Made by a program: the position numbers and the translations under genes
Notes under the pieces: model-generated
Database searches by the model: none
Told to the model about the DNA's origin: nothing
Seen by the model: the letters and a program-made list of their open reading frames with translations, nothing else
Shown here: positions 477 through 2,417 of the stretch, one piece after another
How the letters are laid out: each line of letters begins with the position of its first letter
How positions within the stretch are numbered: the first letter of the stretch is position 1
Assembly: GCF_003946545.1 (NCBI RefSeq)
Contig: NZ_RHOA01000016.1
Span: forward strand, 1-38,765
Direction of reading: 5' to 3'
DNA: 38,765 nt
From: Levilactobacillus tangyuanensis
GTDB lineage: Bacteria > Bacillota > Bacilli > Lactobacillales > Lactobacillaceae

Positions 477-2417
477 ATGGCAGATATTTCAATTAAGTTC
501 CCTGATGGCAAAGTTAAGGCTTTTCCAGCAGACACGACGGCAGAAGACGTCGCTAAATCCATTTCAATTAGTTTGGCTAAGAAGGCCGTTGCGGCAAAGT
601 TAGACGGCAAATTAGTCGACTACCTAGCACCACTGGCTGGCGATGGTAGCATCGAAATCGTCACTAAGGACAGCGACGATGGCTTGGCTGTTCTGCGGAA
701 CACGGTTGCCGCATTGTTACGGATTGCGCTGAAGAAGGAATTCCCAGCTATTCGCTTAGGGGAAGTTAGTGCTGACGCCGACGGTTTCTTCGTTGACACC
801 GACAAGGACGACCAACAAGTTAGTGTCGACGAACTCGATGCCCTGGCCGTTGTTGTTGAAAAGTTGGTTAGCGACAAGTTAGCCATCGACCGGATCTCAT
901 TGAGCAAGGCCGACGCCTTAGCCGCTGTTAAGGACGACCCATTCAGCACCGAATTAGTTAATGCTGTCGATGGTGATGCCGTACCATTCTTGAAGATTGG
1001 TGACTACCAAGTCTTAAGCGATGGCGCCCAATTGGTTAATACCGGCGATGTTAAGAAGTTCAAGTTGCTCTCCGTTGCCGGTGCTTACTGGCAAGGAAAG
1101 TCCTCTAACCCAATGCTTCAACGGATTTATGGGACGGCCTTCTACAAGCAAGCCGACTTGGATGCCGACTTGGCTAAGCGGCAAGAAGCTCGTGAACGTG
1201 ACCACCGGGTCATCGGGAACCAACTTGACCTGTTCTTCGTTGACCCTAAGGTTGGGGCCGGCTTACCTTACTGGATGCCAAACGGGGCAACCATTCGTCG
1301 TACGATCGAACGTTACATCATCGACAAGGAAGTTAACAATGGGTACCAACACGTTTACACGCCAGTCTTAGCTAACCTGGATCTGTACAAGCAATCCGGT
1401 CACTGGGCGCACTACCGTGACGACATGTTCCCACCAATGGATATGGGTGATGGCGAACAACTTGAATTACGTCCAATGAACTGCCCAAGTCATATCCAAA
1501 TTTACAACCACCACATCCGTTCTTACCGTGAATTACCATTGCGGATCGCTGAATTAGGGATGATGCACCGTTACGAAAAGTCTGGTGCCTTGAGTGGTCT
1601 GCAACGTGTTCGTGAAATGACCTTGAACGATGGTCACACGTTCGTTGCCCCAGAACAAATCCAAGACGAATTCAAGAGTATCCTGGACCTGATGGTTAAG
1701 GTTTACAACGACTTCGACATCAAGGATTACACGTTCCGTTTGAGCTACCGGGACCCTAAGAACACCGAAAAGTACTTCGATGACGATGAGATGTGGAACA
1801 ACGCGCAAAAGATGTTGAAGGGTGCGATGGATGACCTTGGCCTACCATACGTTGAAGCCGAAGGGGAAGCTGCCTTCTACGGTCCTAAGTTGGACGTCCA
1901 AACCAAGACGGCCCTCGGGAATGAAGAAACGTTATCAACGATTCAATTGGACTTCATGTTGCCAGAACGCTTCGACCTGCACTACGTGGGTGCCGATGGT
2001 GAAGAACACCGTCCAGTTATGATTCACCGTGGCTTGGTTTCAACGATGGAACGGTTCACTGCTTACCTGACTGAAATCTACAAGGGGGCCTTCCCAACTT
2101 GGTTGGCACCTAAGCAAGTCACGATCATCCCTGTTTCCGAAGAAAAGCATGGGGACTATGCCGACAAGTTGGCAGCCGAATTAAAGGCCGCCGATGTTCG
2201 GGTTGATGTGGACAAGCGTGGTGAAAAGATGGGCTACCTGATTCGGGATGCCCAAACCCACAAGATTCCATACACCTTGGTTGTTGGTGAAGATGAAATG
2301 AAGAATGGTTCCGTCTCCGTCCGTAAGTATGGTGAAGATGACAGTGAATCAATGAGTAGCGATGCCTTCGTTAAGGAAATTCTGAGCGATATTGCGTCTT
2401 ACAGTCGCGAAGACTAA
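477..2417 (+). CDS. thrS: Threonyl-tRNA synthetase, editing site apparently degenerate
   Basis: Class II synthetase that charges tRNA(Thr) in the cytoplasm. At 646 aa it is full length. Domains: TGS at about 1-62, N2 editing domain about 63-225, catalytic core about 240-535, anticodon-binding domain about 540-646. The catalytic zinc ligands Cys336 (in RPMNCPSH), His387 (in NDGHTF) and His517 (in VMIHRG) are present, although the usual NCPGH reads NCPSH. The editing domain is odd: where the family has RHSxAH this protein has R74-NTVAA (His to Asn75 and His to Ala79), and where it has LCRGPH it has L180-SDGAQ (Cys to Ser181 and His to Gln185). The ATG start follows GGGAG. The gene has its own T-box and promoter, and is followed by the separately promoted infC operon. 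Confidence 0.97.

Follow-up and report, generated by a model that had tools for sequence, protein, structure and literature searches.

Can a bacterium whose genome is not strongly reduced dispense with the proofreading of its only threonyl-tRNA synthetase (ThrRS)? This question is raised by thrS of Levilactobacillus tangyuanensis (positions 477 to 2,417, forward strand), which is the first gene in contig NZ_RHOA01000016.1 (assembly GCF_003946545.1), a stretch of 38,765 nucleotides that was analysed as a whole and is hereafter called the window. An earlier note on this DNA had claimed that the gene encodes a ThrRS with a full-length N2 editing domain whose catalytic site is dismantled and with a charging site that is kept; it framed this as a peculiarity of one species and suggested that the species may either mistranslate Thr codons with Ser or depend on a separate trans-editing factor. 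Our analysis supports its description of the enzyme. The framing, however, proves too narrow, as comparison of ThrRSs across Lactobacillaceae reveals that the loss spans nearly the whole family.

Results

The editing domain of L. tangyuanensis ThrRS keeps its fold and lacks its catalytic site

The thrS product is 646 amino acids long, matches the bacterial ThrRS model TIGR00418 with 650 bits against a curated cut-off of 384, and shares 94% identity with the ThrRS of L. brevis. It is encoded by the sole copy found, and no second thrS is present in the L. tangyuanensis genome of 2.19 Mb, which is 99.15% complete. The region to which the earlier note drew attention (477 to 1,160) corresponds to N1 plus N2. 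The N1 (TGS) domain comprises residues 1-62 (477 to 662, forward strand, as for all features below) and is recognized both by a fold match and by Pfam TGS over residues 5-63 (47.5 bits). The N2 domain comprises residues 63-224 (663 to 1,148); its fold is intact, as judged by a fold match, and its Pfam SAD score of 27.8 bits lies barely above the cut-off of 24. The class II core is also present, with matches to PF00587 and PF03129.

Alignment with the S. aureus (1nyq) and E. coli (1qf6) enzymes for residue equivalence places N75, A79, S181 and Q185 at E. coli H73, H77, C182 and H186, exactly as had been proposed. The segment R74-N75-T-V-A-A79 (696 to 713) stands in place of the ThrRS motif RHSxAH, and L180-S181-D-G-A-Q185 (1,014 to 1,031) in place of LCRGxH, and neither the HxxxH motif (H73, H77) nor the CxxxH motif (C182, H186) of an editing-competent N2 is found. 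The substrate loop reads G95-E-V-S98 (759 to 770), replacing the GVGP loop that occurs in 35 of 36 ThrRSs from the rest of the order and in all six from the genus Periweissella. Residues 1-224 contain neither His nor Cys, so the catalytic residues have not moved to other positions; such a shift could have overturned the earlier claim. A search for shifted residues elsewhere in N2 was equally unrewarding among the 164 family sequences that lack the site, with HxxxH in eight and CxxxH in none. The same N, A, S and Q recur in 31 of 31 Levilactobacillus genomes read, which rules out sequencing error; given also the open frames, the intact fold and the single copy, a misalignment, pseudogene or assembly error is exceedingly improbable. 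In E. coli ThrRS, the editing kcat falls more than 500-fold in C182A or C182S, 7000-fold in H73A and 70-fold in H186A (PMC4041444). With all four of these residues gone, the known editing chemistry is impossible.

The charging site tells a different story. The zinc ligands C336 (1,482 to 1,484), H387 (1,635 to 1,637) and H517 (2,025 to 2,027), equivalent to E. coli C334, H385 and H511, are all retained in the alignment, as claimed before. At the positions that we take to be threonine or zinc contacts, L. tangyuanensis is identical to 14 editing-retaining sequences from the order outgroup. Three other residues, all located not far from the zinc loop in the primary sequence, are specific to the family: E330 (1,464 to 1,466), S338 (1,488 to 1,490) and H345 (1,509 to 1,511). 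S338 occurs in 210 of the 213 family sequences, the other three having gaps, whereas His occupies this position in 36 of 36 order outgroup sequences. All three residues are fixed in representatives of every family class compared, Periweissella included, and are rare or absent outside. Because Periweissella shares them, these changes preceded the loss of editing; the idea that they paved the way for it is conjecture.

The catalytic residues are lost through nearly the whole family

The four positions were read in the ThrRSs of 121 family genomes carrying 40 genus codes, representing all genera drawn; these comprise 31 of the 35 Levilactobacillus genomes searched and 90 of the 146 other family genomes with a thrS match. 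Each enzyme was assigned a four-letter class from its residues at E. coli H73, H77, C182 and H186, HHCH being canonical. None of the four catalytic residues is present in 92 of the 121 genomes (30 genera), hereafter the lost class, and the first His alone is kept in two more, from two genera (HQSQ). On the Weissella-Leuconostoc side, 22 genomes from seven genera carry HHDL, in which Cys is changed to Asp and the second-motif His to Leu. The canonical site is confined to five genomes of one genus, Periweissella. With duplicates included, the 213 family sequences divide into 164 lost, five HQSQ, 37 HHDL, six HHCH and one excluded; sequence L336 was left out, as it ends at the locus edge.

A pattern scan of named genomes covered 80 of 119 loci and required the motif GKSSN, so that relatives without it are missing from it. 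Among the matches listed, 79 are family sequences: 60 lost, three HQSQ, 14 HHDL, one HHCH and one cut by the locus edge. The named lost genera include Lactiplantibacillus (with L. plantarum), Lactobacillus, Lacticaseibacillus, Pediococcus, Companilactobacillus, Latilactobacillus, Lentilactobacillus, Secundilactobacillus, Apilactobacillus and Loigolactobacillus, and the named HHDL genera are Weissella and Leuconostoc. The ThrRS core of Periweissella fabalis is identical to that of one HHCH genome.

The HHDL form is constant in 37 of 37 sequences over its seven genera (L089, L093, L402-L416, L420 and others), with both first His kept, and 35 of these 37 retain the GVGP loop. From its sequence, this site looks more like an altered than a decayed one. 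In the ThrRSs of genera g3 and g6 (L095, L096, L097, L098, L106, L107 and L299), N1/TGS is absent besides the dismantled N2; Paucilactobacillus vaccinostercus is the named member of this group, and one genome (G075) carries two thrS copies (L095 and L096), each of which lacks N1 and reads QLAV instead of HHCH.

Outside the family the site is nearly invariant. All 36 ThrRSs from other Lactobacillales, drawn from 35 of 103 non-family genomes plus Vagococcus humatus, are HHCH, as are 69 of 70 ThrRSs from 68 genomes of other Bacillota; one draw behind this count was read for 67 of its 69 matching genomes other than our own, and a further genome of that draw gave no match at the threshold applied. 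The lone exception (L505, outside the order) reads HHCQ and has MNCPGCM instead of MNCPGHM. One genome of the order draw (G258) has three ThrRS-like genes with open frames of 637 to 652 amino acids.

Counting PF07973 matches (E 1e-9) was tried as a rapid way to screen for the loss and rejected, since lost genomes can still show two matches. At phylum level, a single match was found in five of 299 genomes (counted by eye), our own included; among the remaining four, three come from assemblies without a complete thrS, and the last is HHCH. Two matches remain in approximately 57 of 251 family genomes (by eye), including lost ones of the Lactiplantibacillus and Furfurilactobacillus types. The screen is thus not clean, and the distribution given above rests on the residues read.

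The site was probably ancestral, and N2 remains under purifying selection

In a phylogeny built from the catalytic and anticodon regions of ThrRS (128 sequences), Periweissella groups with Weissella and Leuconostoc, with a support of 94 in the Shimodaira-Hasegawa-like approximate likelihood ratio test (SH-aLRT); lost and HQSQ sequences form the adjoining clade (SH-aLRT 96). Because Periweissella keeps the full site, the family ancestor would have had it, and on this best tree it would have been lost at least twice. An alternative topology that unites all defective sequences in one clade is not rejected by the approximately unbiased test (p-AU 0.374), so a single initial loss of Cys and the second-motif His is possible.

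None of the four catalytic sites varies among 17 intact representatives. Their variability ranks between the 60th and 77th percentiles of N2 positions among 79 lost representatives, in which the structural residues G95, F104 and D107 are fixed or nearly so. Across 12 HHDL representatives the entropy at D181 and L185 is zero, and both residues are present in 22 of 22 HHDL genomes. The ratio of nonsynonymous to synonymous substitution rates (dN/dS) of N2 in Levilactobacillus is 0.086, indicating that the domain is still under purifying selection. The dN of N2 amounts to 3 to 8 times that of the core in three lost genera; for HHDL enzymes, Periweissella and two outgroup sets the factor lies between 1.2 and 1.9, HHDL itself standing at 1.2.

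No compensating factor found among known families tracks the loss

The suggested trans-editing factor finds no positive support here: besides the single thrS, the SAD domain occurs in the L. tangyuanensis genome nowhere beyond alanyl-tRNA synthetase (AlaRS) and ThrRS, and no AlaX was found there. AlaX may occur elsewhere in the family: G073 has three PF07973 matches and G109 two strong ones. A YbaK-like protein is encoded in the L. tangyuanensis genome (TIGR00011, 161 bits, cut-off 153), and YbaK-type proteins occur also where ThrRS editing is intact. A ProXp-ala-like protein is encoded as well (PDB 5vxb, E 6e-16). Proteins of this kind occur in 27 of 151 family genomes, with one of the six Levilactobacillus genomes of the same draw among them, and this patchy distribution leads us to reject it as a general compensator. 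PF04073 matches occur in 151 of 151 family genomes, at least two in each, and Periweissella, with an intact ThrRS, has the same two as most lost genomes. No compensating factor that tracks the loss of editing was found among the known families, which alone were sought.

The editing motifs of the homologous site in AlaRS (HTATH and CGG[TN]H) are intact in nine of nine enzymes read, namely that of our own genome and the eight best-scoring family matches, so that, in the comparison with AlaRS, the loss is specific to ThrRS. The L. tangyuanensis AlaRS (L001) has CGGNH, and the other eight have CGGTH. The earlier remark that the editing domain of the phenylalanyl-tRNA synthetase (PheRS) in the window looks normal holds at domain level (B3/4, 226 bits; full-length alignment to 2rhs). 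The scanned remainder of the window is ordinary chromosome, with genes for a haloacid dehalogenase-type (HAD) hydrolase, PheRS beta, YfhO, a penicillin-binding protein, an ArlS-type kinase, a ROK protein and glutamine synthetase; it contains no tRNA, and a scan of all 38,765 nucleotides for a T-box or other Rfam element gave no match.

Discussion

The residue loss and its distribution, the retained fold and charging site, and the purifying selection on N2 call for an explanation. The one we favour, and consider fairly probable, is that ThrRS cis-editing has been lost through nearly the whole family, that N2 is kept as structure and that low-level Ser-tRNAThr is tolerated. The thrS product would then serve as a normal housekeeping enzyme and charge tRNAThr, with an N2 that no longer has the known means of hydrolysing Ser-tRNAThr. 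The loss would be inherited, from a family ancestor with the full site: little or nothing of it would remain in the Lactobacillus-side clade, and the Weissella-Leuconostoc side would have lost Cys182 and His186. N2 would be retained because it is part of the enzyme body and probably also of the grip on the tRNA acceptor arm. Editing activity would be absent, the level of Ser-tRNAThr would be low, and the cell would tolerate Thr-to-Ser replacement instead of relying on a replacement enzyme; Ser at Thr codons is plausible on these sequences. It has been reported that E. coli with ThrRS C182A grows like the wild type in rich medium (PMC6918089), and according to a review the defect of editing-defective E. 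coli ThrRS is mild under excess serine (PMC10057733).

Several points weigh against this reading. E. coli is harmed by high Thr-to-Ser mistranslation (PMC6918089), and in Anabaena the editing-impaired enzyme T2 is unable to replace T1, and the authors suggest that there is selection against a misacylating ThrRS as the housekeeping enzyme (PMC4787780). HHDL enzymes, with both first His and the GVGP loop, might retain some activity, and an unrecognized trans-editor could escape searches by family. Tolerance of a low error rate nevertheless appears the likeliest reading, followed by a trans factor. A bolder proposal, that almost an entire family, made up of free-living and food bacteria, lives without ThrRS proofreading and with a standing, serine-dependent level of Ser at Thr codons, and that the frozen Asp/Leu form may do something new, is possible but somewhat doubtful.

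That editing has moved to a trans factor, YbaK-like or another deacylase, thereby freeing the N2 site to decay, is unlikely in our view, even with YbaK-like and ProXp-ala-like proteins encoded in L. tangyuanensis, with PF04073 present family-wide, and with ProXp-ala known to hydrolyse Ser-tRNA and ProXp-ST1/ST2 to accept Ser- and Thr-tRNAs as substrates in vitro (PMC11295145). The patchy ProXp-ala-like proteins contrast with the loss in every Levilactobacillus genome read, the PF04073 complement of Periweissella is no different, and SAD is limited to the two synthetases. Less probable again is that the charging site has become selective enough against serine to make editing dispensable, with E330, S338 and H345 as the permissive step. 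These residues have the distribution expected of such a step, family-wide and including Periweissella; the presumed substrate and zinc contacts, however, are those of editing-retaining relatives, and serine shares the hydroxyl that the zinc reads, which makes its exclusion hard (PMC4787780).

Slightly more improbable still is that N2 has been repurposed to bind or hydrolyse another substrate. The case is strongest for HHDL, where Asp181 and Leu185 are frozen, N2 is not accelerated relative to the core and GVGP is nearly always kept; against it, the catalytic sites of the lost clade vary like ordinary surface positions, as decay predicts, and no partner or substrate is known. We give low weight to the idea that a Cys-based site would be of no use to bacteria that make peroxide and are poor in catalase, because other Lactobacillales families keep the site.

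What appears new, most likely, is that a whole family without reduced genomes has an editing-dead ThrRS, as far as can be judged from sequence, and prior notice is possible: the literature searched contains no report of family-wide loss of ThrRS editing without genome reduction, and two papers in it that mention Lactobacillus concern other subjects, though the editing-site survey of Melnikov (2018) might contain one. Periweissella, the intact sister genus, and the half-changed HHDL branch are natural controls, so that the question of why ThrRS editing persists elsewhere becomes directly testable in species that are both harmless and tractable, such as Lactiplantibacillus plantarum. The loss is also relevant to proteins produced in lactobacilli, which are mostly free-living, food-grade bacteria.

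Compared with canonical bacterial ThrRSs (E. coli 1qf6/1tje, S. aureus 1nyq), the L. tangyuanensis enzyme shares the order of domains (N1, N2, catalytic core and anticodon domain), the zinc ligands and the N1-N2 fold, but has neither the HxxxH nor the CxxxH that they possess. Fold-search ranks 6 to 15 were taken by a human mitoribosomal protein (chain 7/Lm), which we take to be mL39; it is not a synthetase and has approximately 16% sequence identity. Another parallel is the ThrRS of Mycoplasma capricolum, reportedly described by Zhou in 2016 as a natural housekeeping enzyme with N1 kept and N2 degenerate. In enzymes of that type, N1 and N2 are present and the catalytic residues lost, which is also what we find in L. 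tangyuanensis; they reportedly form Ser-tRNAThr in vitro and do not deacylate it. Naturally proofreading-deficient ThrRSs have been recognized in Mycoplasma and yeast mitochondria (PMC6918089). These cases, however, concern host-restricted organisms with tiny genomes or organelles, whereas the genomes of this family, food and plant species included, range from 1.2 to 3.5 Mb in the draw analysed; that of L. tangyuanensis is not strongly reduced, and its genus reaches 3.4 Mb. In Anabaena T2, post-transfer editing has likewise been reduced through evolution of N2, but HxxxH and CRGPH are still present in T2, a stress-related second copy backed by T1 (PMC4787780), in contrast to the single copy without these residues in L. 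tangyuanensis. It has been stated as a rule that free-living bacteria keep editing (PMC10057733). If the bolder proposal above is true, the lactobacilli would overturn the rule that limits the loss of editing to host-restricted organisms.
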